Below, piece after piece: positions 3,566-64,000 of a DNA stretch of 64,000 nucleotides. The DNA is from Tribonema minus (Eukaryota > Sar > Xanthophyceae > Tribonematales > Tribonemataceae). Position 1 is the first letter of the stretch, and each line of letters starts with the position of its first letter. The notes beneath the pieces are model-generated. The model had not been told where the DNA came from, did no database searches, and was given only the letters and a program-made list of their open reading frames with translations. Position numbers and translations under genes: made by a program. The DNA lies in assembly GCA_017506865.1 (NCBI GenBank), contig JAFCMP010000555.1, positions 186,001 through 250,000 on the forward strand, given 5' to 3'.

Positions 3566-6500
3566 TCACCGCTCAGACGCGTTGGCCGCCGGGTTGTCCG
3601 CGGCGGGCAGGGCGAGCTCAATCGCGCTGACCACAATGCCGTCCTCATCCGCATACACCTGCGCGCACGAATCACGCGCGGAGTAACGCACGCTTCAGCG
3701 GCAGTTGCCGCCACGGCGGGAGCTGCGCTTTGCAGGGCAGCGGTAGACGCTGCGACGCTGGCAGCTACTGCGCGGGGGCAGATGCAGCGGCGCCAGGCGT
3801 GGGTGCGCAGGGCAACAGGGTGGTGCGTGCACGCGTGATGAGATCAGCATCTGATGAGCGGCGTTGCTGCCGTCATCATCAACTGCCGTGAGCCAAGCGG
3901 CCGATGCGCCAGGAAACGCGCACAACAGTCTGCCAAAGTCAGAACGAGTTTGACGCTCCAGAGACGGCACGCAGAGAAAGCTCTTACCCAGTGCCCGGTG
4001 GATCTGAGTGCGCTACCAGCTTACGCCAGGGAATGCACACAGCATTCAACAAGTTTGACACTCTAAAGGCGGGACGCGGAGAGAGCTCTTACCCAGTGCC
4101 CTGGCGTGAAGACAACGCCGGCGAATGTCACGGGCACGTCCGCCTCCCCGGGGTCCGCCTTGCCGCTCTTTGTGGGGTTCGTGCCGATGGCTTTTACGCC
4201 CAGCGGCAGCTGCGCGATGGCGGCGCTGTCGCGGATGCAGCCGTGTACGATGACTCCCTGCGGCGGCGCAGGCGCGCGGCATACATACCGTAAATACATG
4301 CAGATATTTGTTGGTTGGGAAGGCGTTGGTTTGTGTTCATATTTGTTAATTAATTTTTGGTTTACACGTATTCAAGCAACACATCCACAAGGTACTTGTG
4401 ACCATGCGTTGAGAATGGCCGTTACATTACGGTTGCATTTCCCTTCTTCTCCACAAAATACTACTCCCCGTTGTTCTGGTCTGGCGTGGCGCCTGCGGGC
4501 TGCCTGCGGCAGGTCTACCTTGGTCTCCCTCTGCACTGCGTGTGCGTATATCCAATCCCACAAGGGTAAAGTGCCGCGCAGGCGCAGGCGCACGCGCAGT
4601 CGTGATCGTATTGCCTACAGTGGTACCTCTGACGCATGCGGGCACGTAGGCGTTGCTGAGTGGATTGAATCATGAGCTTGCATAAAACGTGAGTCTTGTG
4701 CACTGTGCCGAGCGGTGCTGGCAGCACGCAGCCCCTAACAGCGGGCGCCTTGAGCCCAATTCTAACCCTAACCCTAACCGTACCCCTAACCCTTGGAGCG
4801 CACAACCCTAATACTCGCCGGTTTAGTACATGTCAGTTGATGCATCCCTTGAGAGCGCCGTGAGCTGAACACTAACCGTAACCCTAAGTGCGCACGACCT
4901 CTGACAATCAGCGGCACCAGTACACGTCAGTGATGTGTCAGCATACACCTCTCTCCACTTATCACACCAGTTCATATCGGCTCCACTCCGGCTGCGCCCT
5001 GAGTACTGTGCGATGGAAAGTATCCGGCCATGGCGTGCCGATATGTACCATGTACTGTGCACGTGCTGCCGCAGCCGGTCTCCATTGACGTTCCAATAGA
5101 AGATGCCCAATTCTGTGTGATCAACGGATTGCTCAATGATAAATTATCATCTCACCGCCCGCCCGTTCTGCACCGCGCCCGCCGCCAACATATCCCCCAG
5201 CAATGCGCAGCGCGTGCTGCCGCCGCCGTCCACCACCACTTTTTCTTCAGAAAGCGAATTATGGCCTGGTCAGTTAGTGATGTTCTTGATTTGTGACTTT
5301 CGTCTCGCCACCCATCCATTCTGCACCGCGCCAGCTGCCAGCACGTCCCCCAGCCGCGCACAGCGCGTGCTGCCGCCGCCATCCCCCCGATACTTCTTCA
5401 GAATGCAAACCATGAGTACTTCATAAATACTGCGTAATCATCTCACCGCCCATCCGTTCTGCACCGCGCCGGCCGCCAGCATGTCCCCCAGCAGCGCGCA
5501 GCGCGTGCTGCCGCCGCCGTCCACCACCAGCACGCGCCCGCCGCCCGCCTCCTTGGTCAGCCGCTGCCGCACCAGGGGATTGTTCTCGCGGCAGCGCACC
5601 GTCGCGATACCGCCGCTGAAGCGCCGCACGCCGCCGTAGTCGCGGAAACCGATGCTCGGCGCCACTTGCACCTGCGCGAAACGGCAGCGCACACATGTTT
5701 TCAATGGCTGTCTGTAACAGTGGATGCAAGGGGCGTGTGCTGAAGGAGAATGAACGAGGAAGGAATTTGCAGCGCATCGTCGCGATGCCGCCGCTGCAGC
5801 GCCGCACGCCGCCGTAGTTGCGGAAGCCCGTGCTCGGCGCCACTTGCTCCTGCATGAAACGGGAGTACGCACGTGCGTGCCTGTCACATCGGGCGCGATG
5901 GTCAAGTGCTGCAGAAGTGCCCACGCCGGGTGGCCAGAGCCGCAGTTGCAGCGCCCCCATAAGAGCGCTGATCGCCTGCCTGCAAACTTCAACCGGTGCT
6001 GAAGCGCTACACGCCGCCATAGCCGCGGAAGCCTGCGCTTGGCGCCACTCGCACCTGCGCGATGCGGCGGCACGCGTGTGTGTGTCTGTCGCATCGGGCC
6101 ACAATGGGCGGTGCCAGCAGCGGCAGTGCCGCGGTTGCAGCGCCTCTGTCGCAGCGCTGCCCGCCTGTGCGGTTCCAACGCACTGATGCGGTGCCGCCTA
6201 GACTGTTCCGGGGACCGATGCAAGGCGGCACTTGCACTCAAACCTGCACTTGTGGAAGTGCAGTCACGGACAGGTATTGTTGCTGCGCAACTTTGATGAG
6301 AGGGTGAGCATCAGCATCATGTGGGGGCTGTCTGCACAGCCGGCGGCACGCGCCCGAGGCGTTACGTCAAGTGCAATGACCAGTTCTGCTGTGGTCTAAA
6401 TGCGACTGCCGCCGCTCGCCTCTCGATGCCATGGGCGCCAGCAGTTGATAGCAGTGCCGAATCTGACATGTGGTATATACTTCAAGACCGTTGCTCAGAA

Positions 6501-6828
6501 CTTCAAGACCATTACCTGCCCCTGGAAGTGGTCCATGACTCTGATGAGGATGAGCATCAACATCGCAGCGGAGGCGGTGCACAGCCGGCAGCACACACGC
6601 GTGGGTGTTACATCAAGTGCAATGACCAGTTTCTGCTGTGGCCCAAATGCGACCGCAGCCGCTTGCCTCTCCATGCCATGAGCACGGGTAGTCAATAGCA
6701 GTGCCGACATCTGAGGTATGCAAACTTCAAGATCGTTACTCAGAACTTCAATGCCGCGTTACCTGCCCCTGGAAGTGGTCCATGATGTCCGCAGTTGCGG
6801 GGCTGGGGAGCGCTGCGGACATGCACAT
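3566..6828 (-). CDS. RraA-like / HMG-aldolase-fold protein
   Basis: Four minus-strand exons with matching phases (all phase 0) give 182 residues: 6828-6763, 5671-5447, 4257-4093 and 3658-3566 (TGA at 3568-3566). The protein matches the RraA / 4-hydroxy-4-methyl-2-oxoglutarate aldolase family over its length: PATADIMD at the N-terminus, [40 protein letters not shown], then [11 protein letters not shown] at the C-terminus. Family members trimerise and bind Mg2+ through the Arg-Asp of GCIRD. Here the sequence after RD is S-A-A-I, with Ala where active HMG aldolases usually have Glu or Asp, so it may be a non-aldolase RraA relative (inference). The length fits bacterial RraA (about 160 residues). 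The ATG at 6828 is chosen because it directly precedes the conserved N-terminus; a second ATG lies at 6822. No targeting sequence is evident. Confidence 0.9.
4762..4792. repeat. Interstitial CCCTAA tract
   Basis: CTAACC units, some imperfect, inside the intron between RraA-like exons 3 and 2. A further short copy lies at about 4875-4890. Confidence 0.85.
5150..6245. repeat. Decayed copies of RraA-like exon 2 ends
   Basis: The exon 5671-5447 is flanked by partial copies of itself. Copies of its 3' end with the GTGAG-type donor side lie at about 5150-5250 and 5310-5390 (intron side). Copies of its 5' end with the acceptor lie at about 5766-5855, 6003-6062 and, more degraded, 6180-6245. The first of these still reads [13 protein letters not shown] on the minus strand. 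None is needed for the protein, and the phases fit the single full exon. Confidence 0.75.
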
Positions 6829-7070
6829 TGCTGCTCGCTGCTGCAAGAGGCTGACGCCAGGGAAGCGTGCGCCGTGCCTCGCGCCGCCTGGCAGCATTCA
6901 AGAAGCGATAGCACCGCGCAATATGACATGTTGAGATGATGATGATTTTTGTACTTTCGGAAATGCACATCGCGGCTCGCTGCTGCAAGAGGCTAACGCC
7001 GGGTAAGCGGGCGCCATACCTCGCACCGCCTGGCAGAATCGCCAGCACCGCACAATACGTCATGTTGAGA
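6325..7070. repeat. Tandem duplications upstream of and around RraA-like exon 1
   Basis: The 3' end of the first coding exon with its donor (ACCTGCCCCTGGAAGTGGTC on the plus strand) occurs at 6761-6780 and again at about 6514-6533. A roughly 130-bp block containing TGCTCGCTGCTGCAAGAGGC is present at about 6822-6930 and 6965-7060. A third pair of blocks, about 6330-6450 and 6585-6690, shares AAGTGCAATGACCAGTT. The copies differ by scattered substitutions and small gaps. Confidence 0.65.
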
Positions 7071-8485
7071 TGGTCCGATTTTTATGACATGCCATGTTTT
7101 GAGCCTTTCCTAGTATCTTGACAAGACACAAAATGCTTGCCTTTTAGGCACTTGGACTCCCATTTATATCGGTCGCCTACTGGTGCAATTCAGTATTGAC
7201 GCTGCCAGGCGTCAAGCGCTGCCAGGCGTCAAGCTCATCCTCAGATAACAATTGCCGCATGAAAGTGCGCAGCTACTACAATATGTGTCAGTGACGCTGT
7301 AATGCTTGCGCAAGAAGCGGCCAAAACCTGTCAGGGTGTTGCATATTGAGTTTGATGTTGCAGCGAAAGCGCACCGCATTGGACTACACAGGGCACAAGT
7401 ACATTGCACTACAGATGTGATCATGCAAGGGGAAAACTGGGCCGCGGAACATCATCGACAGATCCAGATAAGCAAAGCCAAAAACCTCTGGCTGCTCGCC
7501 AGCGCTCCAGAAAGCTATGGAGATTCGAGGCAGCTGCAAAACGTCTGCTTTACCTGAATGCTTCACAGGACTTCCGAGGGTCGCCGCGGCCGCAGTCGTC
7601 GCAGCAGCTGCCGTCAGGAACGTCCTGGATCTCAACATGGCGATAGTGGTGCGCAGTGCGTTTTTTGCAGCTGCTCTCGAGCAAGCGGATTCGCGTTTAA
7701 GTTCTCAAGGCTCTCCAGCTCTATGATCTTGCTCCATTGCTCCACTGCTCCCTAAGGAGATTCAGATCTGCCACTAAACTTCAAGTTGAACTTGAGTTTC
7801 ACGCCCTTCGTCTCATGTGTACGACTGACAGCACACATATTCTCCATTGTGCACCACGGTAATAACTTGTGTGCCGCCGTGTCCCTGGTGCTCATGACGC
7901 ACATGACGGCAAGTCGTCAGGCGCCAGCTAGCCCCGCGCAAGCCAACTTCAGGTTCCTCATGTCCGCCGACTGTCGCGCGGCTGCACCACGCGCCGCATG
8001 CGACACCTCCCAATTCGTTAACAAGGCAGCGAGTGGGCGCTGCTGCGCGTGCGCCATCCTTAGACCCCCTGAGCGCGCAGGCCCATCCGCACGGCGCCGT
8101 CGCTGGAGCGCGTCAACGTAGACGCTGTCGTCCATGCACTCACTGTCCATGGAGGCAGGCACTACCTAAGTCGGTACGCCTCGTGGGCCTCGGCGCTTTG
8201 CGATCGCTGCGTGCAGCTGGGCCTGCTCCTGCTGCCGGCGGCGCGCGGGGCCCGCGTCGCCAAGAGCAGTGGCGGCGGCAGCAGCAGCAGCACCAGTGGC
8301 GGTAATTACTGGTTGACAGGCAGCATAAAAAGCATGTTCCTTGAGGGACAGCCAGGCGGACCCGCCCACGATTTCCCGTGCTCAGGACTGATTGTTGTGA
8401 CAAAGGCGCCGGTCAGCATCTTTGGGTCAGGGTGAGGTTAGGGTTGGTGGCTGCAGCAAAAACGGCAGCATCCTGCAGCAGGAGC

Positions 8486-8519
<34 letters not shown>

Positions 8520-10376: not shown

Positions 10377-13300
10377 TCATTCTAATGGCTGCACTATCAG
10401 CACCGCATCTGCCAAGCCGAAGTCTTCAATTGTCTGCTGCGACATAGAGTCATCTGACAGCGCCTCCTGCGGATACGAGCGGCGAAGCTCCCACCTGCTG
10501 CGTCAGCACAAACATGGGCGCAAATGTCAGTGTCAAACGAACGTTCTGAGTAGGCGACGGCCATCGATAGCCAAGTGTACGCTGTCATGGATGCAAGGCG
10601 GGGGCACAGGGAGCTGCAAGTTATGGCAAGGTGCGCCACGTATTTGCCAGCAAACTCACAGGAATGGAAAGCTCAGCACCCGTCGTCTTCTACAGCCAGT
10701 GCGCTTGAAGCGCTGATTGCTGCATGAGGCGGATGCTTCATATCGCTTCTCTTGCCCACACATGCTGCTTGTAAGCATGCTGGACAGCACTGTGCGCATA
10801 CTCCATCAAGTCAGCGAGAGCACGGGACGCACCGCATGATACTGATGAGCATACCCGCAGTGTTACTGCCACAATGCTCAGCTGCCCTGTGGCAGACCCG
10901 CGCGCCCGCTTCTCGCTCGATGCACGCAGTACTACTTGGAAGTACATTTGAACATTTGAGTGCACCTGCGCATACATTGGCCAGAAGGCACTGGACGCAT
11001 GATGTGATACCGAAGACTCTCGGAGTACCCGAAGCGCAGGCGCCGTATTTGCTACAACGCTCAACTGCCCTGCGCCACACCCGCCCGCCTCACGCATGCT
11101 GATGGCTGCTCCAGCTGCCTTCTCGCTTGATGCACACCGCACTACGTATCCTCGAAAGCACCTCCTTGTATATTGGCCAGAAGCACTGGACGCGTGACGT
11201 GGTACCAAGAAGCAAATACCTGACAGCGCCATGTGTGCCTCAACGCTCACCTGCCCTGCGCCAAACGCGCGCGCCTCACGTACGCGTACAGGTCGCTGAC
11301 GCGAGAGCTGGCGGCAAAGCGGCGCACGATGCGCGCCCCCCCGCACTTGAAGCAGACCCTAACAACCCCTTCCCCTTCCTGGGGTGGAGCGACGGCGGCG
11401 TGCAACAACGCAATTCTTGCTGTCATGACATGCACGCCACAAGTGGTCAACAGGAGCGAACAAAAGTGGCACAGTAGAGGTTTTGCGTGAAGTGGCGCGT
11501 CAGTCCTGCGGTGGCGCTGGTGAGGGCCGAGAGGCGGATCGCAAGGCCCTGCCGTGCCGCGCCAGTGTGCATACACACAAGTTCACTTCTGAATCCGCTG
11601 CAGTAGATATATGAACACTGGTTGGCGCCTTGCCCTGCAGCTGGTTGAAACCGCCTGCAGAGGCTCGGTAAAGTAGCGCAAGGGACATGTGCTTGAAGTT
11701 GTCATATGCCAGGGCAGGAATTAGGGTTAGGGTTAGAGTAGCGCAAGTGACACCTTGCAGGGGGTTGTTGTGCGCCAGGGCAGCTCGAGGTGTTGACATC
11801 AGTGCCGCGATGTGCCCTCGCTTTGCTGGCTGCGGGCAGTGCTCTGTGTGGAGAGGTAAATGAGAGACTTGGGTCGCCTCTGGCAGTTGATCTGGTTACA
11901 CACAGCTACCTGGGTTGGCTCGATGCGCACGGCCAGTAGTAGATAGATGTGAGACAGGGGCAATCTATCCTGCGATCTGGGTTACACACAGCTACTATGG
12001 GTTGGGCTCACTGCGCGCTGCCAGGGGGCGAGGAGGCGGCGGCAGGCAACAAGCGGCGCACCCTGTTGCATAGGGATGCGCGGCACCGCCAAGCTGTAAG
12101 TGCGGTACATCAGAGGCACCACGTGCTGCTCAGTTGCTGGATCTTCGTGCGCGTCAGGGCCCCCGCAGCGCCACACACCATGCTCAACTGCAACTTCGCC
12201 TGCAAGCGGCGATGATGGCCAGAGCCACTTCAGCAGCGCACGCCTGTACCCGCCGCGGCGCCGCCGTGCGTGTTGTCGAAGTTAGCCTCGGCAAGACGTG
12301 CCGTGGGCGCGCGATCCCAAATGCCGAGCCCGTGTGAAGGGCCGGAAGCGCTTACACATCACACTGGCTGGCAGCTGCATATCACATTGTCTGTGCTCAA
12401 ACCAGAGGGTCGTCTGACACGACCCCAGTTGGTCGCTGCTACTAATACTATCTGGGAGTGCAACATTCGTGTCTTGTTTCCGTCTGCCTTTCCATGGGTA
12501 CTCACCGGTAGCCAAACCTGCCAAGCCTTCTGATGCTCCGCGGTCAGACAAAGCCCACTGGCGCTGTTGTCAATCAGCACTTGGCGCCGTCGCTACGGGG
12601 CCCGCCATTATCTCATTGATGTATACAATTAGACAGCTTCGCGCTTCAAATCTGCTCTCAAGACCCTCACCGGCGGCTCATGCGGCAGCTCCTCTGAAAG
12701 CGTCGGCGCAGGGAGGGCGCTTATTGAAGCAGCGGGACTGTGTAACTGTCCATTGGACGGCGCGCTGTGGCAGCGCTCAGCGTCTTCATTGCAGCGCTCC
12801 GTCGCGCCAGCAGGCGAGCTGAGCGTTGCTGCAGTGTCGCGGTCTCTCTGTCTGCGGGCCGAGGGGAAAGAGAGCAAGAGCGCAGTCATCAGGGTTAACC
12901 TAACCCTATCCCTCGCGCCATCAGGCGAGCTGAGCGTTGCTGCAGTGTCGCGGTCTCTCTGTCTGCGGTTGAATGAGAAGGAGGACGGCGGCGTAATTGT
13001 GATGGCACGGGCCGAATGCATCGCACAATCTGGGCACCAGGCAGCCAAGAGTGGCTGAGGCTCTCCGATGGCTTTCTGCTTGGTGCCATTCGCCTGCACC
13101 ACCTGGAAGGCTGAGCATTGCCGCGTCTGTGCTTCTGCTGTGATATGTATGCGGCGGGTATGCATGTGCGGTGCAAGCAGGTTCGAGCTCATGCCAAAAC
13201 GTGGTGTGGAGCGTGGGGCGCAATCATGGCCCCAATGAGTGTGCTTCCGGATATGCAGTAGCAAAGTTAAATGACAACTGGGAGCGAATCCCTTAATCGA

Positions 13301-16923: not shown

Positions 16924-17234
16924 CACATCAGCTGGCCTTGCAGTTTGCGCTGTGCAACGTCGGCGCTCCACGATGCGCTTGATAGTTTCACACTAGTTGC
17001 TGATTCCTGCGCAATCGCTGCATTCATTGTGTGTCCCTTGGGTGAACGCTCAGCGTGGGCTGCAAACCTCCAAATGACTAGGTATGCGTATGCTGTTACA
17101 TTTCCAAAGAAAATAGCGTCTAGTCCTGCACAACTTATTTGCTACTTGGCTGGGTGGAGATTAGGGCTTGGAGTTAAAGCTGTAGTTTCTCCTCGGCAAA
17201 ACTCTGTTAGCCTTACCTACAAGCGGACAGCGAC
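16924..17234. other. Short intergenic spacer
   Basis: This spacer separates two plus-strand genes. It holds no recognisable element; the promoter and 5' untranslated region of the secreted cysteine-repeat gene should lie here. Confidence 0.4.
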
Positions 17235-27852: not shown

Positions 27853-27884
<32 letters not shown>

Positions 27885-33089: not shown

Positions 33090-33120
<31 letters not shown>

Positions 33121-39636: not shown

Positions 39637-40410
39637 GGTGAGCGCTGCCGCTGCTGCCGCGACGCGCGCTGCTGCTGCTGCTGCTGCTGCCGCTCACGGC
39701 CCGGGGGTCTGATGGCACGGCAGTGCAATGCGCAAAGTAAGTTTGTGAGCTTCGATGAGGCTGTCGATACGGCTGAGGTCTGATAACACGGCAGCGCAAG
39801 AGGTACGTTCGTGAGGTTGTCGATGGCGAGCTCGTCCAGACCAATGTTCATGGTGAGCGCTGCTGCGTTGAGCGCTGCTGCTGCTGCTGCCGCTCACGGC
39901 TCGGGGGTCTGATGGCGTGGCAGCGCAGTGCACGAGGTACGTTCGCGGATTTCTCGCAGCGCACAAGGTACATTCTCGAGTTTGTCGATGGTGAGCTCGT
40001 CCAGCCGTCTATGGTGAACGCGGAGGCCGCGACCGCGTGCTGCTGCTGCTGCCGCTCACGGCCCGCGTCTGATGGCACGGCAGCGCAACGCACAAAGTAC
40101 CGTTCAATGAGCCGTTCATGAGCTCAATGCACGAAGCACATTGGTAGGCTTTTTGTAGCGCTGCTGCAGCCGCTTGCGGCTCGGGGGTCAGATGGCACGG
40201 CAGCGCAATGCACAAGGTACGTTCGTGAGCCTGGTCTTGCGCTGCTGCTCCCGCTCACAGCCCAAGGGTCTGATCGCACCGCAGCGCAGTGCACAAGGTA
40301 CGTTCGTGAGCCCGTCGATGGCAAGCTTGAGGTGCAACTGCGTGTTGAGCGCTGCTGAGGTGAGCACTGCTGCTGCAGCCGTTCACGGCTCAGGTCTGGC
40401 GACACGCGCG
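39600..40410. repeat. Tandem array over the epsin start codon and upstream region
   Basis: Units of about 110-190 bp share TGAGCGCTGCTG..GCTGCCGCTCACGGC..GGTCTGATGGC..GGCAGCGCA..GCACAAGGTACGTTCG. At least five occur from 39640 to 40400. Some include a copy of the coding start: GATGGCGAGCTCGTCCAG..ATGTTCAT at about 39820-39851 would encode MNIGLDELAIDNL on the minus strand, and a degraded one is near 39988-40015. The array therefore duplicates the start codon and whatever 5' untranslated or promoter sequence lies beside it. Confidence 0.7.
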
Positions 40411-48740: not shown

Positions 48741-49668
48741 ATATGATTTGTGGTTTTAGAAGGCGGCAGCGTGCATGCAAGGCCTGCGTGTTGACTTGAG
48801 CTGCGGTGTGAGGCGCGGCTTGAGAGCTGCCGAGGCTCGATAAACGCTGTGGCGTACGCACAGAGCTCATATGGCCAAAACGCTGTGCCCCAGTGCGCAA
48901 TGTAGAGATGCAGCAGCGCGCGCAAGCACTCCGCAGCAAACGCACAGACCCGACGGTCACCGGGCTGCCCCTTCTGTGACCGCTGCTGCAACTGTGCGCG
49001 TAGTTTGCCGCCCCACTGAGCTGGAACCTGAACTCTTGCTGATTCATGGACGGCAGGACGTGCCTGCGGCCGCAGGTGTGAATGCGCGGCACTCCTCTGG
49101 CAGGATGGCCGCGCATGTGCGCTTTAATGCACGGGCGGCGGCAGCAGCGGGGGGGGGGGCGCGCGCGTGCTGCCCGCGCGCAGCCGCAGCGGAAACGCAC
49201 TCAGTGCCGCAGTCGCCGCCGACAGTGCTCACTGTTTGATGCAGAGATGATGCTCCTGAAATGTACTGTGCCCACTCCGCCCCCCCCGCCGCTTCTGTCC
49301 GCGCAGCAACTGCACGAGCAGGCAGCGCGGCGGCCAGTTGCGCGGAGTTGCGCTATGTAGATGACGTTTCTAACAGCGCAGCACTTGATGATGCACATGT
49401 GAAATCGTGGAGAACAACTGGCCTGACGACTCGCCGTGACACCTGGCTCCCTCGCCCGTCCGCGGGCGGCAACTGCCGCCGCAGCGTGAGGATGGCGGCG
49501 GCGTGTGCATACAGCTCGGCGCCTAGTTGCGCGGAGCCGTTCTAGGATTATTCTCAATGCGACAGCACCCAATGTTGCAAGTGCGAAGCCGCAGAGAACG
49601 CAGTGCCTGGCGACTCACCTCCATTACACCTGGCTCCTCTTGCATGCGTGCAGCAACTGCCGCCGCAG
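48741..49668. other. Possible 5' part of the Sip1-family gene
   Basis: A plus-strand frame around 48980-49075 reads RPTELEPELLLIHGRQDVPA and stops at a GTGTGA donor. It might be an N-terminal exon, since related enzymes have a short hydrophobic LLVHG-like strand there, but its phase does not fit the next exon. Two decayed copies of the next exon's 5' end lie at about 49300-49345 and 49455-49550. Confidence 0.3.
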
Positions 49669-52600: not shown

Positions 52601-55600
52601 GGGGGCGACAATCCTGCTGCGCGAGAGACTCATCGGTATTGACGCCCAGCTTGATGCTTGCGCGTGAGAGGCAAGCATGGGCTGTTGCGACGTGGTCACT
52701 GGCAGGCGCGCTCGGCGCAGATGCCGGTTCAGCGACTCTCTGAAACTGCTAAACGCACCCTAACCCTAACCCTAACCCTAGGAGCGCCCCGCAAAGTCTC
52801 CTCTCCTCGCTCATGTGCCGGGAGTGCCAGTCTATTACGGCACTGTCGGGCAGAGCCCGCTCGTACGCGCGCCCGCACCAAGAAGTCTGGTTCCTCATCG
52901 CATCAGCTCATGCCGTGGGGTCTGTAACTGACGCACGGAAGGCCTTCCTGGGCCAACACGAGAAGCGCCAAACTGCACCGGTGCATGGAGCCCTTCAGAG
53001 CGCGCAACGCTTCAAGGATCCTGACCCATTTTTCTCATTGTGTCGCTGACGAATGCAGGCGCAAGCTGTGGTTGACGAGCCTGACACGCGGCAGGCTTGC
53101 TGAATTCCATGACATGTACACTGCGCTTATTAGATGAACAATCAGTAGTCTTGCCCTTCTCAATTTATCCGTTTTTGGTGTGGCGCAGGTTCAAGTTGTG
53201 GTGGATGAAACCGACGCACGGCAGGCGCGGCAGCGACGTGCCGCCTGAGACGCAGCTGCTGCTGTCCGAGATGCCACCGGACCCGGAAACAGGCCGGCGC
53301 CTGTACAGCCTGTTCATTCCGCTGCTGGACGGCCCCGCCAAGTGCAGGTATGTAGGTATTCGTTGCTGCTTAGCTAGCTGTTACGGCTAAGACAGCATTG
53401 CTCAACATAATGATGAAGATGGGCCGGCGCCTGTACAGCCTGTTCATTCCGCTGCTGGGCGGGCCCGCCAAGTGCAGATATGTAGGTATGCATTGTCGCT
53501 CAGGCATCATTGCTCAGGACAATGTTATAGAGGGCAGGCGCTGCTGGACGGTCCCGCCAAGTGCAGGTAGTTAGGTATACGTTGTTGCCCAGGCATCATT
53601 GCTCAGGACAATGATATAGAGGGCAGGTGCCTTGACAGCCTGTTTATTCCGCTGTTGAACGGCCCCGCCAAGTGCAGGTATGCATGTAGGCGTGCGCACT
53701 GGTGATGCGCAGGTGCAGGCATGCATGTAGGTATGCGGCCTTACGATACGCTGGTACATGCTTCGGCTCAGGCAGCGTTGCTCAGCAGACTGGAGATGGG
53801 GAGGTGCCTGTACAGCTTGTTTCATGCCACTGCTGGATGGGCCCGGCCGAGTGCGGGTATGTAGGTATGCATTGTCGCTCAGTGCGCTGGTACGCCTCTG
53901 GCATTGTTGCTCCTCAGGAAGATACAGATGTGCACCTGGGGTGCCTGTACAGCCTGGTTATCCTCCCGATGCTGGACGGGCGCGCCAGACGCAGGTAGTG
54001 TAGGTATGCGACCGAGGGGTGCGCCTGAGTATGCAGCCTTGTAGCGCACTGGTACAGCTCAGGCATCATTGCTTACGAGAATAATATAGATAGGCAAGTG
54101 CCTGTACACTGTACAACCTGTTCATTCTCTGCTGCTGGGCGGGCGCGCCAAGTGCAGGTATGTAGGTATACGGCCAAGGCGTGTGCCTGAGAGTCATGCC
54201 ATCATCACCGCGCCTCTGCTCCTTTCCTCCGTATGCGGCAAGAGCAGTTCTCCGCATCAAGCCTACTCTGACTTTCCTCTAAACTCAACGCGGCTCCCCC
54301 TCCTGACTCCCCCGTGTCCATGTGTGCAGCATGAAGGGATTGCCGGATCAGCACCTGCAGCTGCTGGCGGAGACGGGCTGCTCCAAGACCCCCGTTCCCT
54401 CCTCCGACTTTGTGAGTGGCAAACACGTTTGTGTGCTGAGTTACTCGCCAGAAGCGTCGTGTGCTTGCTGACCAGGTTTGCCAATGCTTTTGAGCAGGTT
54501 TGCCAACGCTTCTGACATGAACATTTTATAGGTGATGGGTAGATGCGAGCGGAGCTTTGTGGCCTTGACCAGGGCAGCGAGTTCTCTCCTCCGACTTCGT
54601 GAATTGCAAGCACGGTCGTGTGCTGCGTCGCTCGCCAGAAGTGTGATTACTGAGCGGGTGTGCTGGTGCTTCTGATACGAGTCATGTGCTAGGCGGTTGC
54701 CATGTGCAGAACTGTGTAGCCACACGTAGTGCAGGGAGGCGTCCCCTCCTCCGACTTTGTGCCTTGCAATCACGGTCGCGTGCTGTGCTACTCTCTGGCA
54801 GTGCGCTTGCTGAGCAGGTTTGCCAATGCTTTTGAGACGTGCAACTGATAGATGGTGGGTAGGCGTGAGCAGACCTCTGTAGCCTTGAGCAGGGCAGCAA
54901 GGCGTTTCCTCCTCCGACTTTTTGAGTTGCAAAGACGGTTGCGTGCTGTGCTACTCTTGTCGGAAGTGTGTGCTCACTGAGCAGGAATGCCGCTGCTGTT
55001 GAGCCGTGTCGTTCAGTAGCTGGTAGCCGCGCGCAGGGCTGTGTAGCCATGAGCAGTGAGTGCAGCGGTGTGTTGCGCGGCAAGACGTTAGGGTTGGGTT
55101 AGGGTTAGGGTTAGGGTTACTTGTGCGCACACGACGCGGTCGCTTACGGACTGTTCTGGAATTGGTGATTTCCGCCGACCAGGAGCTTGCGGCCCGCAAG
55201 CGACTTGCTGCTTGACGAAGCGACGAGCGAACTGGCGCACTTGAAAGAGGCTCCCGGTGCTGCAAGCTCCCGCAGCAGACCGTGCAGGGGCTGTGCCGTT
55301 CGATGCTGGTGTGATGCACGTCCATGCGTTTGAAGCATGCATCGTCACCGTGTCCCAATGGCGCCTGACGTGCAGGTTCACGATGAATGAATTCACGGTG
55401 AATGAATTCATGGTGAATGAATGCACGCAGACGTCACGTGCGGCGTCAGATGCGCTGACGGTTGAGCGGCGCTGCGCTGCTGCTCGCTGCTGCACTCACA
55501 CAGTGCATGAATGAATGCACGCAGTGCGGTGGCAGGGAAACCCAGCGTCGCGGTGTCAGACGGCAGGGCGAGGTAGCCTCACATGTGTCGATTGCTGTCC

Positions 55601-58600
55601 TGCCACAATGTCAGGGGGCGAGCCTACGATATATGTAACGGGGTCACAACAGGATGTGTGTCGTGCGGTGCTGGGCTGACGGTTGAGCGCTGCTGCTTTG
55701 CTGCTCGCTGCTGCTGCTGCTGCCGCAGGTGGGTCTCTTTGTCGCCGTGCACGACGACCCGTACGAGCTCCTCGCCAAGAGCTTCAAGCTCGTGCAGAAG
55801 CGCATGGCGAGCCAGGTGAGTCACCAACTTCAACTTGCAGCCCTTCTCAACAAATACTTGAGTCGGACTTTAGAAAGTGTGGCAGCGCTCAACCATCGGG
55901 CGAGCCAGTTGTGTCACCAACTTCAAGCACCCCTTTTCTTCACAAGAGGCCGGTACCCCGAAGCTGGGGTCTCATTTGTCGGTTCCGTGAGTGTGCATTG
56001 TTTTTTTTTTCATACCAAGTGGTAGTGATTTACGCCAACCGCATCAACTCATCACAGCTGAAGATCAGCCCTTGTTATCTGGTGAAAATCATACATCAGT
56101 GTTATGGGGGGGGGGGGGGGTGATTAGGGAGTTGAGCGCTGCTGACCCATTGCCAGTGCACGACATCACCTGGCTATGAGCAGCTTGTTGCAGCTCCTCC
56201 ACGAACCTGACAGCATTTGTGTGTACCAGTTCATCAATTGTTTGCTGAGAGTAGCTGTCTTCATGTGCAAATTGGTATGACAAAAAGGTGTGTCGTCTCA
56301 TACTACACTAGGAGCGCTGCACCGAGAGCAGTATCTTGTTTTGTGCGGATTGCTTGCTCAAGGCCTGCTGTCTCAACTGGCATGCACTTGATGTTCTGAT
56401 GCGCGTCACTCAGGTGAAGGGCGGCGCCCTCGGCGGGCTCATCAGGGACGCGGAGCACGCGCTGTACAAGATGAAGAGGCACGAGGTGGGTTGGTGGCGA
56501 TGAGCGCTGTTGTTGAAGTACTGAAGATGAAGCTCTGAAGTTGGAATGACGGCCTTCAGTGGTCGTCAAGTGCGTCCCGGACCGTAGCCCCCCCGACATG
56601 TGCAAGTACCTCAATGGTGCACGTGCATCTCGTAACACGGCCCATGACTGTTTTGCTCTGGTGTAACTGCCTGTAACCGCCAGGTCGTCAAGCGCGGCCC
56701 GACCGCAGCGCGCCCGACAAATGCAACTGCACTGCAACCACTTCAACTGTTGCACATAAGGCATTCTTTGTATGCCTATGATGGATTCATGCTGTGCGTA
56801 ACTGCCTGTAACCGCCAGGTCGTCAAGCGCGTCCCCGACCGCAGCGCCCCCGACATGTGCAACTACCTCGGCTGGTGCACATGGGACTCTTTCTACACGG
56901 CCGTCGACTCTGACAAGGTTTTCGAGGGGCTCTCGAGCCTGGAGGCGGCGGGCGTGAAGCCGCGCTGGCTGGTGCTGGATGACGGTGAGCGCTACTTCAA
57001 AGTGAACTTGCAGTAAGGGTGAATGTTGTTGCCGATGCGTTCTACACGGCAGTCAATCTGACAAGGTGTTTAAGGGGCTCTCGAGCCTGGAGGCGGCGGG
57101 AGTGAAGCCGCGCTGGCTGGTGCTGGACGACGGTGAGCTGACTATGCTACTTCAAGTTGAACTTATAGTGGAGTGTCTGACTTTCGTAGACGCGTTAAAT
57201 GCGTTCTACACGGCCGTCAGTATGACTGCGTGTAAAGACGCTCTCTCCAGGCGGCGGGCGTGAAGTGATGGACGGCGATGAGCTGAAAGGCTACTTCAAC
57301 ATGAAGTGACAGGGGTATCGTGCGCTGCCGTGTGCCGCCGCGTCTTTGCGGGAGGTGGTAAAATCCGTTTCTCCAGTCGTGTCAGAGGAGTGCAGCGGCT
57401 GGGACTGGCTAGTAGTTCAACGTGATGTTGGTGGATGGCGTGCTGGATGCGTGCTGAGCACTGTTTAGTTGACACTGCCTCGAAACGAAGCGGCCGCATG
57501 GTATCCTCGCGCCACATGAAGCCTATGCGGTGTGTTCGGGCTTCGCTGGAGTGTTATCACGTCAGAGCAGTTTGGCGGCAGCGGTGGCTCCTGCGGGATG
57601 ACGGCGACGCTGCAGCTTTACGTTACTTAATCAGGGTGCGACTGCTTCATTGCTGGCGCGCACCACCGCTAGCAAATCTCAATAAAAACACAGCAGCGTC
57701 GCTGATGTTACGCTGATGTTACGGTGACCTTCTTCCCTGCCTCTGCTCTCAGGCTGGCAGAGCACCAGCAACATCAAGGCCAAGAACGGGGAGCAGTGGA
57801 TGGTAAGTGTGCGCACGCGAAGCTCTGCTTGGCGCGTGGTTCGTGTCACATGCGTGCACTTGTACAAGCGGTCACCCTTGTACGGTTTTCGTTTTCAAAA
57901 GTCCTCCATGCTGAAGAGCTTGCAGCTATTGAATCTGTGTGGCACACAGTCTGCGCGCAGCACTTCACGAAGCGCTCGACCATGGACGCAGCCGCGCTAG
58001 CAGCAGCCGCGTGCAACGTGCCTGCCTGAAACCTCAGGCCGCATTCATGTCAGCAGAGCCGGCAATCATTTCTGGAGCACTGTTCACGGAACGAACCTTC
58101 CAGAGAAATCTCCATTCCCCCTCAAGTGAACCCTCCTCTACCCCTTCTCCGCTGCCCATGCTTGGGACCACCTGACATCAGAGCCTTCCGGAAAAACCTC
58201 AATTCCTCCCAAGTGACCCCCTCCCCCCCCCCCAGCAAGAGGCGCTCCTTGTGATGCCGTCCGTCTGCTCTCAGAGCTCCACGAGGCGCTCGGCCACGGA
58301 TGCAGTCGCGCTCGCAGCAGGCGCGTGCAGCGGGCATGTCCGTAAACTCAGGCCGCATCCATTTGCCAGCCTGTGGTCATTCTTGCGCACTGTGAACCTC
58401 CCAGGATACACTTCAATTCCTCCCAAAGCTCCCCCCCCCCCCCCCCCCTCCCCCCGCCTCACTCTTCAGAGAAATCTCAATTTCCCCCAAAGTGACCTCC
58501 CCTCTCCGCTGCCCCCACGCCTAGGACCACCTGACGTCGCTGGTCGCCAACAGCAAATTCCGCAACGAGAAGCACGGTCTGGACCTGCGCGACACAGTCC

Positions 58601-61600
58601 AGAAGGCCAAGACGGAGCACGACATCAAGTACTTCTTGGTCTGGCACGCGATTGCGGGGTGAGTGCGCGCCATGGTTCATGCGCATCAATCGCGTGCGCG
58701 CGCCGTTCATGTTCATGTAAAGCTTCATAATGAACGGTACAGCATGTTTCAAGGCCAAGACGGAGCACAACATCAAGTACTTCCTGGTCTGGCACGCGAT
58801 TGCGGGGTGAGTGCGCGCCGTGACTTACGCGTGCGAAAGCGTCAGTCGAGTGCATGCATGCAGTGTTCGTTTTCGATTGGATGCATAGATTGTGTTTCAA
58901 GGCGTAGAGTGTGTTTTTTCAAGGCCAGGATGGAGCATGACATCATGTCCTTCTTGGTCTGGCACGCGATCGCGCGGTGAGCGCCCCTTGCGCATGCGCG
59001 TGAACACGTACATCATGTGCATGCGTGTAGAGCTCTTCTTTCTGCTTGCATAAACTGTGTCGTTCCTTGTCTCACAATCACTTCAACACAAAGACCTCAA
59101 TAGACGAATGTGGCGTACGCTCAAGCCCAGACACATTGCAGCACTTCCAAAGTGTACACACCTCGCACAAGGTGAACAAGGAAATGACTGTTGAGCTGTA
59201 ACATACTCCTAATGTGCTCAAGTGCGTACAGCAGCACAGACCGCGTGGTTTTGCCGAGCCCCCTTCCCACCCTCCTCCCTCCCCATCTGCTACTGCTTGT
59301 ACCCCCCCCCAGGTATTGGGCGGGAGTGGGCATGGACTCTCCCGACTTGTTGCAGTACTTGCAGAGCGTGAACACCTCGCACAATGTGAAAAAGGACATT
59401 GGCTGTTGAGTGTAACCAACTTTCGAAGCGCAATGTGCGTTTAGCAGCACACACCATGCTTGTAGCTGACCCCCTTTCTAACCCTTCCCTCCTCATCTGC
59501 TACTGCTTGAACCTATGTGCAGGTACTGGGCGGGGGTGGACATGGATGCTCCCGACTTGTTCAAGTTCCGGCCGCAGCGCGCACGCTTGACGGCGCCGCT
59601 GGACATCGTGGCAGTTGACCCGGATATGAAAATGGTGATTTGCTTGCATGTGGATGGTATTTTGAGTATGATAACGAATCAAAAGATCGTAGAGCTCTAG
59701 GTGACAGGGGATGGTTAGCCGCAAGTGCCTTCCACCAGTAACCGCGGTCGCCGCTGCTGCAGCAATTGGCCACGAGTCAAACAATACCACCGTATCCACC
59801 AGTCAAAATGACTTTCATGTGCAAGCCTTTAGCGTTCGAGGCACGGGTGTTCAGTATTGGAAAGGTCTCACGTGTTCGGTAGGCCAGCTCCAAAATATGT
59901 TCAAAATCCAACCGCAACGCGCACGACTGACATCGCTGCTCGACATTGTGGCAGTTGACCCCGATGTGAACCTGGTAATTGCTTGCATGAGGAGATGTAT
60001 GATGTCAAATTTGCGATGAACAAATTTGTGATGCGGCACAGGGCTTGTGCAGTTGCGCTGTTCGTTCTAGATCGGCAACGTGATTTTCATGCGGCATTTC
60101 AAGCTCAAGCTCCGAACTGCACCGGCACAAGAAGTGACACTGGGAAGTTGAGGGATAGAACGCCATGCAAGTCACCCGATGATGATGACTGCATGCAGAG
60201 GATGTCGTTCACATGCCATCAACCGGCGCTGGTATGAACCATATCTGTACCTCAAACCCTGTTCGCTTGTTACTGCACAATACATCGCTGAATCGCGCTG
60301 TTGTCCAAGGTGCATTTTGTTGAGTGATAGACCAAGAGCTGCACGGCTACAACCCCAGCAACGATCAGCTGCCCACTGCTGCCCTGCCGCTGCTGCTTGT
60401 GTGCGTGAAATTATTATGCATGGTGCAGCCCTGCTGCCCTGTTCTTGCTGATTGTGCCATTGAACTCTTCCTGTTTGCTCACTTTTAAAACTGGTGAATA
60501 TTTGTCCCAGCACATCTGATGCGCACCATGTTGCGCTGCCTCTACTGCCGCCGCCGCCGCCGCAGTTTTTCCGCGTGTGCAAGTTTCTGAACAAGCGCTT
60601 TGGCGTGGTGCCCCCCGAGCACATCAGGGCCTTCTACGATGAGTATCACAGGTGCGTATTGATGTATAAGAGCACCACGATCTTTTGAATCGTTCCCATG
60701 TATGAATAACATGCGCGGCTCACTGCGACATCGAGATTCAATTGGTGCCCTGAGAGCTCAGCGCAGGGAGTTGACGAGCTGTGTCCCAGTCAGTCTGTGT
60801 GAGGCAGAGTCGTGAGTCACGAGTCGTGCCGCGTGCAGCGCTCAGCACGTTGCTGAGACGTGCCACGCACACGTGAAGCCAGTCACCATGTCTTGAGCAC
60901 GGCGCGTTCGCTGCGCAGCAACGCTCAACAGGCTGCGCAGCATCGCTTGCTAGCAGGCGACCGGCGATTGGCGCGCCTGCGCAGGGATCTGCTTGCGTGC
61001 TTACGGCACGCTCGCGACAGCGCGCAGCACGGGCTCGCTTTGATGTTGCATGCAGGGGCCCTTGAATGCGCTTTGAGCGCGGGGCAGATGCGCTGTGCTT
61101 CAGCATGACTCACCTATCCGTGATGATGCTGTAGTGGCGTGCAACGCCTGCCTCATCTGTTGGCTGCCGTACCCCAAACACACCTCATGTTGGATGGCAG
61201 TGCTCAGCACCCCAACACAGCATGGACCAGCGTGGCACAGCCGCTTCGCACATGGCGCCAGATTCGTTGAGTCATCGCTGAGCTCGAGTCTTGCGGCCAG
61301 TCTTGTGTGCTGCTGCGGTCGGTGAGCATCGCCGAGTTGGGGTTCTTGCGCCAATGTCGCATGCGCTGTAATGGGGATCTCACGCGTGCTGCGTGTGCCT
61401 CAGGTATCTGCGGGAGAACGGCGTGGACGGCGTGAAGGTGGATGCTCAGTCGCTCCTCAACTTTGTAGGCTACAACAACGGCGGCAGGTGAGTGAATGCA
61501 CTCACCCGGCTGCACGAATTCACAAGTGATTCGCCGAGTTGGTACGTACCATTGCGGCAGCAGTTCGTGGCGTCGATTATTGGAGGGCCCGTGGCCATCT

Positions 61601-64000
61601 GCAGGGGTGTATCAGCGCTCGAAAGCGGATTGTGCGTGACGGGCCACAGGATTGTGAAGATCGCAGAGCTACTGCAACATTGAGCCGTCACCGCGTGACA
61701 TGCAATCGGGCTTGAGTTACCAGTTTGTACGATGTTCAGCCATTTATTTGGGGAGGTGAGTACTCTGAGCGCTGAAGTAATGCTCAGCGACTTTGATTTC
61801 CGGACTGCTCTTGACCAGAAAACACATCATGACCTGCTGTTGCGTCGTGTTCAGTGCCGACTGAATTTGAAATCGCATCCGCACGTCATCGAATCCTTCG
61901 TGCTCCGCAAAAGCAGAAGCTTGGCAACGCTGCTGTAGTGATGCCACCACTGCTATACCTCACAAGTGCGCACTGGCAGATGACGGTATCGTTGCGTCAG
62001 TCCCACGAAATGCACGTCCACCGATCAACGTTTGAGCATATTCAGGTATGGTGCATGCTTTCACAGCTGACCAATGGCGGTGCAACGCTACAGGAGGAGG
62101 TTGCACAAAACTGCAGAGGTTCCACATTGCTTCGGCGTCGCCATGGAGGAGCTGGTTTGTGGCTCACGGCGCTTGCATGCGCCCACCGTGCAAGTGCCCG
62201 ATGCGCATTGTGTCGGAAATCTCATCAGACACCATTTTTCAAAAGCGAATTGCCATTACGGCGCTATTGCTGTCGCCACGAGCGCTAACACCCCTGTTGC
62301 GCCGCCGTCGCTGCCGCCGTTGCTGCTACTGCTCTTCCGTGCAGCGTGGAGATGTCGCGCGCTTATCACTACGCGCTCAGCAAGAGGTGCGCGCACCGCT
62401 TCATGTATGCTCATGTGAGGGGGGGGGTCACAACCTTCATAATGTTTCACCCGGTTCATGTATGCTGATGGGCTTACAAAAGGGGGGGGTAGGGGGGGGA
62501 GAGAGTCACAACTTTCATACTTGAATGTAGTTCATGTTTCACCTGGTTCGTGTACGCTCATGGGCTGTCAGGGGGGAGTTGGTGGGGGGGGGGGAGAGTC
62601 ACAACGTTTACGCCATGTTTCACCTCACCGAGCAGATGGCAACTGCTGGGCTTTGGAATTGAAAATCACAGATGCGGACACCCGAGCGCCCGCTCGCTGC
62701 GCGATGCATAGGGCTGAGGGTAGTTGTGATAAAGTCCTGTGGGACGCGAGTGGGGTTATGACAGGTTTACCTGCGCCTCAAGTGGCAGGCCGCTGGCATA
62801 GTCACCTGCGCCAACCGCTGATAGGACTTGTTGAAGTTCCGCGTTCCGCGGCACCCCCACGAACATCAACTGCCGTGCCATCGCCAATCGCAACTTGATG
62901 TGCTGCCGCTCTTCTTCCCCCCCCCCCCTCCTCCCCCCCCCCCCCCCCGGGGCGTCAGCCGCAAATCCGCGACACAGCGCACGGCAGGCAACAAACATCA
63001 ACTGCACCATTGCCTGAAACTTCAAGTGCAGACGCTCCGCCCCCGTTCTGTCCGCTGCTGCAGCGTCACGCGGCACTTCCTGGATAGTGACACTACGCGC
63101 GGCAGCCGATAAACGTACACGATATCATCGCCTGTGAAACTTCAAGTGAAACTTCAAGTGCTGACGCCCCCCCTTCTTTCCGCCGCCTGCTGCAGCGTCA
63201 CGCGGCACTTCCCCGACGGCGACACGGCGCGCGGCAGCGGCCGCGGCGGCCGCATCATCCACTGCATGTGCCACGACAACGAGATACTGCTGACGCTGCC
63301 GAGCTGCTACGCGCGACGCCCGCTCATCCGCGGCAGGTGCGCGCGGGCTGCTACTAGTTGAAGTTGAACTCACCTTACCCATGTTGAAGTTTTGTCTACT
63401 TCGCTCCTCCCTTGCGTTGTGGAGGGTGTCCCCCGCACCCACGGCGACATGACGCCAGCGCAGCTCTCGAGGTGGGCACAGGGTTGGTTGAATTCTCTCG
63501 AGGATGCACAGGGTGGCGTCAGCTGAAGCGCTCTCATGCATGCTACCTGCGGCACTCGTGCGCGTATTACTGCAGTGCGTACCAGGCCTGCTACAGCAGA
63601 GGCAGCTGACGCCTCAGCCGCCTTGTGATTCCCTTACGCCTTTGCCGCTGATTCAGCCTGTGCAACATGGCCCTGAAATTGCTCGTGCCAGCTGGACTGC
63701 CTGTGAGTTTTACATACTGAATACGGTGCGTCAGGTGCAACGGCATGGCAATCTGCTACAAGCCTCCGTGTTGCGAAGCGCGCTTGCCTGCTGCGCGCGT
63801 GTAACGCCGATCTCTACCCGAGCGCCGGAGTGCAAAGCGTGACCACGGCCCTGAGACGGCCCAACTGCGTTCGCATGTTGCATACCGATCACTGTGATGT
63901 CGCATGGCAATCGCACGACGCGATTCTGTTGCGACTTCTCTGGTGCCTGCAGCCACGACTTCTATGCGCGTGCCAGAGCGCAGGGCCTGAAGACAGCCTT
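49669..64000 (+). CDS. Raffinose synthase / alkaline alpha-galactosidase (Sip1) family enzyme, partial
   Basis: Fourteen plus-strand exons join in phase: 49669-49898 (acceptor 49654 possible), 53189-53347, 54330-54411, 55729-55815, 56414-56485, 56819-56984, 57753-57802, 58525-58658, 59523-59634, 60566-60651, 61404-61487, 62345-62386, 63196-63336 and 63953 to the window end. About 497 residues are covered. Family hallmarks in order: RFKLWWMKP, LFIPLLDGPAKC, FVAVHDDPYELL, YLGWCTWDSFYTAV, PRWLVLDDGWQSTSN, YFLVWHAIAGYWAGV, GVDGVKVDAQSLLNFVG, SRAYHYAL, RIIHCMCHDN and GSHDFYARA. The KVD aspartate is the expected nucleophile. These enzymes move or hydrolyse galactose on raffinose-type sugars. The usual Ser-Asp-Asp-Phe is Ser-His-Asp-Phe here, so substrate or activity may differ. 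The N-terminus is unresolved and the C-terminal part lies off the window. Exon I uses a weak GTGATT donor. Confidence 0.9.
49950..51000 (+). repeat. Eight-copy array of an exon tail plus splice donor
   Basis: The last 70 or so bases of exon 49669-49898 with its donor (GGGACGGGCGGGAC.TGCCG..GGCGGCTCAACGCGACGCGC..GCGCTGCACAGGTGCG) recur at about 49985, 50125, 50262, 50432, 50568, 50692, 50817 and 50930. The spacing is roughly 120-170 bases. Most copies keep a GTGCG or GTGTT donor. Between copies sits an ACTTCAAnnTTGAAC word. Frame and identity decline from left to right. Confidence 0.9.
51059..51082. repeat. Long homopolymer G run
   Basis: A run of over 20 G. Similar G or C runs occur at about 56104-56120, 58428-58448, 62410-62418 and 62919-62949. 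They could form quadruplex-like structures and are also places where sequencing length errors are likely. Confidence 0.9.
52758..52780 (-). repeat. Interstitial CCCTAA tract
   Basis: Nearly four CCCTAA units in the 3.3-kb intron of the Sip1-family gene. Confidence 0.9.
53410..54175 (+). repeat. Array of copies of exon 53189-53347 tail
   Basis: The exon tail and donor (CTGTACAGCCTGTTCATTCC..GCCAAGTGCAGGTATGTAGG) recur at about 53425-53490, 53535-53575, 53625-53690, 53805-53865, 53940-54005 and 54095-54170. They are separated by CTCAGGCATCATTGCTCA-type intron sequence that is copied too. Confidence 0.88.
54565..54945 (+). repeat. Copies of exon 54330-54411 tail
   Basis: The exon end (CCTCCTCCGACTTTGTGAG) with the following intron (TGGCAAACACGTTTGTGTGC) recurs three times, at about 54585-54640, 54735-54800 and 54905-54965, with a spacing near 155-165 bases. 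Confidence 0.8.
55087..55119 (+). repeat. Interstitial TTAGGG tract
   Basis: Five TTAGGG-type units, one imperfect, in an intron of the Sip1-family gene, opposite in orientation to the tract at 52758. Confidence 0.9.
56555..57285 (+). repeat. Copies of both ends of exon 56819-56984
   Basis: Two degraded copies of the exon's 5' end (GGTCGTCAAG..GTCCC.GACCG.AGC..CCCGACATGTGCAA) lie upstream at about 56561-56620 and 56683-56735. Two copies of the 3' half lie downstream: one good (57036-57138, still reading FKGLSSLEAAGVKPRWLVLD) and one broken (57192-57281). The WCTWD core is found only in the real exon. Confidence 0.85.
58100..58980 (+). repeat. Copies flanking exon 58525-58658
   Basis: Upstream, the pyrimidine-rich acceptor region (CAGAGAAATCTC..TTCCCCC.AAGTGA..CC) is repeated at about 58098-58175, 58188-58230 and 58400-58500. 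Downstream, the exon tail with donor (AAGGCCAAGACGGAGCA..ATCAAGTACTTC.TGGTCTGG) recurs at 58752-58812 and, more diverged, 58921-58981. Confidence 0.8.
59280..59975 (+). repeat. Copies around exon 59523-59634
   Basis: An upstream copy of the acceptor and 5' half lies at about 59300-59395 (CCCCAGGTATTGGGCGGGAG..GGACTCTCCCGACTTGTT). A downstream copy of the 3' part and donor lies at about 59895-59980 (CAACGCGCACGACTGAC..GACATTGTGGCAGTTGACCC). The middle copy was chosen because it alone is open throughout and joins both neighbours in phase. Confidence 0.75.
62400..62625 (+). repeat. G-run tandem repeat
   Basis: Three units of about 80-90 bases read TTCATGTATGCTCATG..GGGGGGG..TCACAAC.TTCAT. They lie in the intron right after the 42-base exon at 62345-62386. 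Confidence 0.75.
63050..63110 (+). repeat. Copy of exon 63196-63336 acceptor end
   Basis: CTGCTGCAGCGTCACGCGGC..TTCC..GACAC.ACGCGCGGCAG matches the 5' end of the real exon 140 bases downstream. AAACTTCAAGTG words precede both copies. Confidence 0.8.

Follow-up and report, generated by a model that had tools for sequence, protein, structure and literature searches.

Local direct duplications are concentrated at exon-intron borders in a 64-kb window of the Tribonema minus genome

In algae, introner elements provide a sequence-based route to intron growth or gain, and in tandem exon duplication coding sequence is duplicated into the adjoining intron. Introns are also said to be gained through the tandem duplication of an exon segment (the Rogers-type model), and Vaughn and Bennetzen reportedly described 'patch-mediated' insertions in rice in 2014. 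In this study, we analyzed a window of 64 kb from the xanthophyte Tribonema minus (the whole stretch from position 186,001 to 250,000 of contig JAFCMP010000555.1, assembly GCA_017506865.1, with coordinates counted from its first letter), in which exon ends, along with the splice site and flanking intron sequence, recur as tandem copies in the adjoining intron. PMC2891723, by its opening, deals with sliding and tandem duplication as sources of new introns. Small tandem duplications arise in mouse cells, according to the relevant part of PMC8355091, when complementary 3' overhangs are filled in by CST-Pol alpha and the ends are joined, and the account of stwintron origin in Lipomyces in PMC7138796 describes the duplication of a donor element of 4-7 nt, for which fill-in repair of an asymmetric break is proposed. 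For Haematococcus lacustris, the genome sections of PMC7617258 describe a repeat-rich genome with the telomere motif AACCCT, 10.37 exons per gene and short repeats organized in tandem. Judging by titles and abstract openings, we found no description of border-biased duplications of the size reported here in the open-licence literature.

Duplications were detected by comparing the window with itself by BLAST, and gene models were built from open frames and splice consensus; all counts are limited to this window, with five spliced gene models and one lone first exon (220-337, plastid-targeted-looking), which together contain 39 complete introns and 81 splice borders. The search returned 96 matches, 88 of which are direct and lie within 1200 bp of each other (78-985 bp apart), the remainder being telomere-like letters, a single low-complexity pair and a 96-bp pair that is inverted and dispersed. 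Inverted matches number three: two of telomere-like letters and the 96-bp pair. The 88 local direct matches form 38 clusters, and block shuffles of the sequence (n = 10) gave 0 matches each. A splice border lies inside 27 of the 38 clusters [rotation mean 9.8, maximum 18, 5000 rotations; local jitter of the borders, mean 12.2, maximum 21], and 28 of the 81 borders are covered, compared with a rotation mean of 14.3 and with 28 attained in 0.04% of rotations. Donors (17/41) and acceptors (11/40) do not differ in how often they are affected (p 0.24). Among clusters with at least 85% identity, 10 of 15 span a border against a rotation mean of 2.2, and when each of the five genes is left out in turn, 16-25 border clusters remain against maxima of 9-15 (1000 rotations each). 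The proportion of border clusters is 5/5 in the RraA-like gene, 2/3 in the UBX gene, 3/7 in the Cys-repeat gene, 5/6 in the epsin gene, whose sixth cluster is an array over the start codon that lies largely outside the gene, and 11/13 in the Sip1 gene; outside the five models it is 1/4, that one being the plastid-targeted-looking exon. These results confirm that the pattern is real and statistically strong in this window. The first-pass annotation had reported duplications in six named genes, on both strands and on donor and acceptor sides, all of which was borne out by the self-BLAST; the plastid-targeted-looking exon that it named is indeed affected, but lies outside the range of 3566-63336 that it gave for the phenomenon.

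At the 28 affected borders, the duplicated unit measures 91-366 bp (median 152), with an exonic part of 6-107 bp (median 39) and an intronic part with a median of 102 bp. The breakpoints are scattered in exon and intron around the junction, and none is fixed at the splice site. Hence the earlier wording, of an exon end copied together with its splice site, does not hold as a mechanism, as the units straddle the borders and neither start nor end at splice sites; the splice site is a passenger of the duplication. When the 45-bp end of each adjoining exon was compared with its own intron (p < 1e-3), it recurred on the donor side in 12/39 introns, on the acceptor side in 9/39 and on either side in 18/39, with 15 matches in 898 pairs to other introns of the same gene and 2 in 3282 pairs to the introns of other genes. 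As a comparison value, intron-interior 45-mers match elsewhere in their own intron in 23 of 148 cases, these interiors including the copies themselves. Where an exon measures 100 bp or more, its intron-facing end was found again in that intron 18 times out of 32, and its distal end never (0/32). Relative to its possible maximum, the exonic share of the unit has a mean of 0.36, and none of the 28 values exceeds 0.69. Thirteen of the 28 border alignments reach the length of one unit or more, which suggests that these copies abut; for the remaining 15, any filler is indistinguishable from decay. Within the gene models, multi-match arrays, with up to about 9 copies as read from the sequence, account for 12/25 border clusters and for 0/7 of the rest; the corresponding means under uniform simulation are 3.3/8.9 and 6.6/24.7. 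Duplication at exon ends is thus frequent but not universal, being weak in the Cys-repeat gene (3/22 borders) and at exons shorter than 100 bp.

The duplications differ from each of the described routes, while sharing features with some. Introner copies are dispersed, whereas the copies here are local, as the rarity of matches between genes in this window shows, and a mobile-element origin was rejected within the window. Tandem exon duplication would copy whole exons with both splice sites, whereas at exons of 100 bp or more the distal ends do not recur. The Rogers-type model shares with our data the tandem duplication with copied splice signals, but here existing introns grow, and the unit consists of exon plus its own flanking intron rather than of exonic sequence alone. 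With the Lipomyces stwintrons, as far as the origin is set out in PMC7138796, the shared features are a duplication at the exon-intron junction and its ascription to break repair; a duplication of a few donor nucleotides, 4-7 nt in that system, is not what we find, our units being of 91-366 bp.

Once formed, the copies appear to be free of function. In the exon part, mismatches between copy and exon amount to 7.5, 7.6 and 16.4% at codon positions 1, 2 and 3, and the intron parts of the copies are 85% identical. Of 27 indels in the copies, two are a multiple of three and 25 would break the frame, which argues against coding constraint of the kind expected in tandem exon duplication. Among the copies, 25/32 still have the donor GT and 9/10 the acceptor AG. 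One could take this retention to mean that the copies are kept for a purpose, as spare splice sites, decoy exons or buffers of intron length; however, it is close to the 0.72 expected for two bases when each is neutral with 85% identity, the indels are of the kind just described, and we regard such a purpose as most improbable. The aligned copies show no sign of copied splice sites being retained or purged. Together, the codon-position, indel and splice-site data indicate that the copies decay, as the first-pass annotation had noted, and do so like neutral DNA, while the true exon stays constrained.

The constraint on the exon raises the question of whether the border bias reflects survivorship, that is, random tandem duplication everywhere, with duplications in exons purged and copies beside a conserved exon recognizable for longer. 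Consistent with this explanation, none of the BLAST clusters is contained entirely within an exon, exon codon positions 1 and 2 differ from the copy half as much as the intron parts do (7.5% vs 15%), and background duplications away from borders exist, in 11 of 38 clusters [seven in 36.1 kb of intron interiors and four in 19.3 kb outside genes, a similar density by hand count]. We simulated uniform tandem duplication over the modeled genes, drawing on the unit lengths seen in the window and detecting clusters by BLAST as before, removing duplications inside or across whole exons, letting introns decay neutrally, holding exons fixed and applying compensating deletions; the outcomes depend on the chosen indel and deletion rates. 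The simulations cover the five spliced models, for which 32 of the clusters remain when matches must lie wholly inside, in place of the 38 of the entire window; the first forward simulation was compared with 33 clusters, 26 of them with a border, counted by hand. At two duplication rates, 27% and 29% of the simulated clusters contain a border (SD, the standard deviation, 7%, maximum 49%, 240 runs), and a second uniform simulation gave 27% (SD 8%, maximum 58%, 160 runs), compared with 25/32 observed. A short pilot (6 runs at each of two settings) agreed and was left out of these counts. The simulated exonic share is 0.54, with 31-34% of values above 0.7, compared with 0.36 and 0/28 in the window. 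With the exons masked, the conserved copy is no longer easier to detect, because both copies then decay freely, and border-derived clusters still number 19/26 against 24% simulated (maximum 50%). A stricter masked measure, which asks for a border within 12 bp, points in the same direction but separates much less well (11/26 vs 24%, maximum 48%). Thinning of the non-border duplications in the simulation raises the share of border clusters to 56% when fourfold (56% masked) and to 65% ± 7% when eightfold (67% masked), compared with 78% (25/32) and 73% observed. The border bias is therefore supported beyond chance and beyond simulated survivorship, in copies that are direct, local and short in their exonic part, and we consider survivorship alone unlikely.

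If introns were formerly very short, then almost any 150-bp duplication would have included a border, and the pattern could be a relic of growth under uniform duplication. Indeed, uniform duplication starting from introns at 15% of their present length yields 69% border clusters when it is halted while the introns are short, but when growth is continued until introns are as long as today, the share at three settings is 25, 36 and 28% (maximum 52%). Within genes, 11 of 12 clusters with at least 85% identity span a border, against 28-39% in the intron-growth simulations, and with exons masked this holds for 7 of 10 clusters with at least 82% identity, against 25-37%. We hold this explanation to be very unlikely.

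The excess hints at a mutation process that favors exon edges and lengthens introns. We propose a local process that generates head-to-tail duplications of about 90-370 bp straddling exon edges through the fill-in of staggered breaks, and give this proposal about an even chance. The lesion would be a staggered break, or a pair of nicks on opposite strands, in a transcribed gene and close to an exon edge; fill-in of the complementary overhangs, followed by end joining, would duplicate the overhang. The duplications that survive would be those that leave the exon contiguous, the working splice site being that of the upstream copy for donors and that of the downstream copy for acceptors, with the spare copy becoming part of the intron, and some units may later have been amplified into arrays. 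Positioned nucleosomes, paused polymerase or R-loops are candidates for what might concentrate breaks at the edges of exons of 100-250 bp. Compared with the break fill-in duplications in the pertinent part of PMC8355091, the duplications here are likewise head-to-tail, local and short, without a mobile element and without inverted copies; they differ in their concentration at exon edges, in their longer units and in the repeated rounds that lead to arrays. As a mechanism this is plausible, though unproven; the pathway and the source of the breaks are inferred.

A number of results, along with the weaker outcome of the strict masked measure, weigh against this proposal. None of the breakpoints can be placed to the exact base, and the decayed arrays preclude an assessment of microhomology at base level; units of up to 366 bp exceed the overhangs of 43-49 bp given in the part of PMC8355091 concerned; one array (39592-40394) covers a start codon, not a splice site; and the data come from only five spliced genes and one exon in one window. 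A further departure is a strong effect of exon length, which is not predicted by breaks linked purely to splice sites: affected borders number 7/46 at exons shorter than 100 bp, 20/29 at exons of 100-250 bp and 1/6 at longer ones (5/26, 19/27 and 1/6 without the Cys-repeat gene), whereas the simulated ratios are far flatter (9/17/20% for uniform duplication and 17/25/26% for duplication centered on junctions). The junction-centered simulation, run at one setting, also gave only 57% border clusters and too large an exonic share (0.47 against the observed 0.36), without such a length effect. The process may thus be linked to exons as such, exon-sized nucleosomes being one example, and not to splice sites. 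In its full form, this alternative makes nucleosome-sized exons a hotspot through chromatin or composition, with splice sites incidental and with selection keeping the overlaps of a single edge; the length effect, the median unit of 152 bp and the array over the epsin start codon all fit it. Yet a uniform hotspot of this kind predicts exonic shares of up to 1, and none of the 28 observed exceeds 0.69; exon GC is similar beside affected and unaffected borders (66.8% vs 63.9%), and we find this alternative unlikely. Of 11 gene ends other than splice borders (counted by hand), one is affected, which is not significantly fewer (Fisher one-sided p 0.08). The view that the duplications are tied to borders and are not random segmental events is upheld by the rotation, leave-one-gene-out, masked and simulation controls, and is qualified by the exon-length effect and the strict masked measure.

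The broader reading, in which a process directed at exon edges and coupled to splicing, transcription or exon chromatin has acted often enough to be a main driver of intron lengthening in this lineage, is more tentative, and we place it below an even chance. The observations bear on how introns lengthen without mobile elements. As an effect, lengthening is evident, with 9134 of 36144 intron bp covered by repeats, although nothing shows selection for that purpose. If the proposed process is correct, then intron growth follows from the sites of DNA breaks in transcribed genes and not from selection or transposons, the affected borders hold dated, decaying records of DNA repair, and gene predictors are at risk from spurious exon fragments within introns. 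The duplications are listed in Table 1.

Table 1. Duplications at exon edges in the window, with the extent of each cluster and the identity of its matches (percent identity over alignment columns).
Feature	Span	Strand	Copies and identity
Plastid-targeted-looking first exon 220-337 (single exon, putative gene)	220..543	+	donor copies 404-483 (79%/80 columns), 502-543 (93%/43)
RraA exon 4 (4093-4257), donor copy 3943-3996	3943..4101	-	85% over 54
RraA exon 3 (5447-5671), donor array, copies near 5146-5238, 5300-5387	5146..5529	-	92%/93, 74%/242
RraA exon 3, acceptor array, copies 5769-5872, 5992-6099	5591..6099	-	87.5%/104, 81%/80
RraA exon 2 (6763-6840), donor duplication, unit 248 bp	6290..6785	-	80.5% over 257 columns
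RraA exon 2, acceptor duplication, unit 142 bp	6816..7072	-	80% over 123
UBX exon 3 (11251-11378), donor duplication	10962..11280	-	76% over 133
UBX exon 2 (12671-12851), acceptor copy 12909-12968 of 12798-12857, youngest pair	12798..12968	-	96.7% over 60
Cys-repeat exon 3 (18102-18217), donor array	18179..18492	+	72%/198, 76%/63
Cys-repeat exon 6 (21409-21465), donor array, 6 bp exonic only	21460..21650	+	78-83%
Cys-repeat exon 8 (23285-23341), acceptor copy 23059-23148	23059..23300	+	89% over 90
Epsin exon 7 (32829-33153), acceptor duplication	33125..33448	-	77% over 176
Epsin exon 6 (33737-33843), donor copy 33555-33624	33555..33795	-	88% over 74
Epsin exon 6, acceptor copy 34082-34122	33808..34122	-	83% over 41
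Epsin exon 3 (37399-37475), donor copy	37196..37421	-	83% over 48
Epsin exon 1 (39448-39636), donor array	38645..39539	-	4 matches, up to 88%
Array over epsin start codon and upstream DNA (exon edge, no splice border)	39592..40394	-	9 matches, up to 88%
Sip1 exon 49654-49898, acceptor duplication	49323..49730	+	73% over 229
Sip1 exon 49654-49898, donor array, about 8 decaying copies (read from sequence)	49792..50974	+	14 matches, up to 91%
Sip1 exon 53189-53347, donor array	53292..54191	+	14 matches, up to 90%
Sip1 exon 54330-54411, donor array	54393..55056	+	3 matches, up to 77%
Sip1 exon 55729-55815, donor copy	55806..55938	+	84% over 43
Sip1 exon 56819-56984, acceptor array, two copies ahead of true exon	56561..56883	+	86% over 66
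Sip1 exon 56819-56984, donor array	56891..57305	+	75% over 287
Sip1 exon 58525-58658, acceptor long-unit array	57949..58538	+	3 matches, 75-80%
Sip1 exon 58525-58658, donor array	58603..59060	+	72%/316, 87.5%/64
Sip1 exon 59523-59634, acceptor duplication, unit 214 bp	59136..59561	+	77% over 220
Sip1 exon 59523-59634, donor copy 59898-59993	59558..59993	+	80% over 97
Sip1 exon 63196-63336, acceptor copy 63015-63106	63015..63238	+	81% over 96

Both examples that had been singled out as the youngest are real, namely the 60-bp UBX copy at 12909-12968 (96.7%) and the Cys-repeat copy from 18304, which repeats the sequence from 18179 onward with 37 of 39 exon bases the same, the identity being 72% over the full three-unit array. 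The spacer of the UBX pair (12858-12908) contains telomere-like letters placed head to head, possibly filler left by repair; among six aligned pairs, AACCCTA in the spacer was seen in this one.

The gene models comprise an RraA-like gene (5 exons), a UBX gene (4 exons) and an epsin gene (10 exons) on the minus strand, and on the plus strand a gene for a Cys-repeat secreted-type protein (12 exons) and a Sip1/raffinose-synthase-like gene (13 exons in a single frame) that extends past the end of the window. Five of the six proteins or parts submitted to Pfam gave matches [Raffinose_syn, 1.8e-76, for Sip1; ENTH, 4.6e-35, for epsin; RraA-like, 4.8e-45; UBX, 5.3e-10; and PPR], and the Cys-repeat protein gave none. 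RraA exon 1 is out of frame with exon 2, the UBX start codon is uncertain and exons 1 and 2 of the Cys-repeat gene are tentative; codon positions in the RraA-like and UBX genes were assigned from the frame of later exons. Viral contigs searched for a relative of the ENTH part of epsin yielded none. The G+C content varies between 51 and 66% across the window in 2-kb steps.

An absence of duplications from the intronless PPR gene had been noted in the first-pass annotation, and its BLAST duplication coverage is indeed 0, but this proves little, because duplication within an exon is selected against. Low complexity was masked in the self-BLAST, which hides tandem repeats in low-complexity coding sequence, and these are brought out by Tandem Repeats Finder (TRF): a 72-bp in-frame unit (2.2 copies, 85%) lies at 31461-31618, inside the glutamine-rich exon 8 of epsin, and units of 33 and 42 bp, likewise of in-frame length, lie at 16085-16234, in an intronless, low-complexity-rich open frame of 713 residues (14782-16923) that has neither a Pfam match nor BLAST tandem duplications. 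Duplication inside coding sequence is thus present, and is tolerated only where frame and composition permit.

Two short motifs recur in the introns. The 7-mer ACTTCAA/TTGAAGT occurs 64 times, compared with 5.3 expected, and 0 of the 64 lie in modeled exons. In nine of the 41 introns it begins 8-30 nt downstream of the donor, in both orientations, compared with 1.2 expected (0/5000 randomizations), these being epsin introns 1 and 2, RraA intron 2, Cys-repeat intron 4 and Sip1 introns 1, 4, 5, 6 and 13, and it is possibly an intron-start motif. As for a causal role in duplication, 36% of the 7-mers lie within 25 bp of a repeat edge, compared with 17% of random positions, a value inflated by array copies, and it lies within 100 bp of 25% of the 28 affected borders and 9% of the 53 unaffected ones, numbers too small for a conclusion. 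The density of palindromes after donors is about that of intron interiors (7.7 vs 6.5 per kb). The telomere-like AACCCTA occurs 52 times, 45 of them in modeled introns (for example at 4762-4793, 21801-21831, 23941-23966 and 52757-52780); as a scar of duplication it was rejected, with 5.8% within 25 bp of a repeat edge compared with 16.8% for random positions. Haematococcus lacustris shares the letters AACCCT and the tandem repeats with the window, and sections 3.3 and 3.5 of PMC7617258 do not mention exon borders.

The dispersed inverted 96-bp pair (25937-26032 and 59673-59768, 87.5%) lies in introns of two genes, and is the sole non-local match besides the telomere-like letters and the one low-complexity match. 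In the Cys-repeat gene (17235-27775), seven exons of 57 nt share the same phase, and each encodes one repeat of about 19 residues, which suggests that this gene grew by exon duplication.

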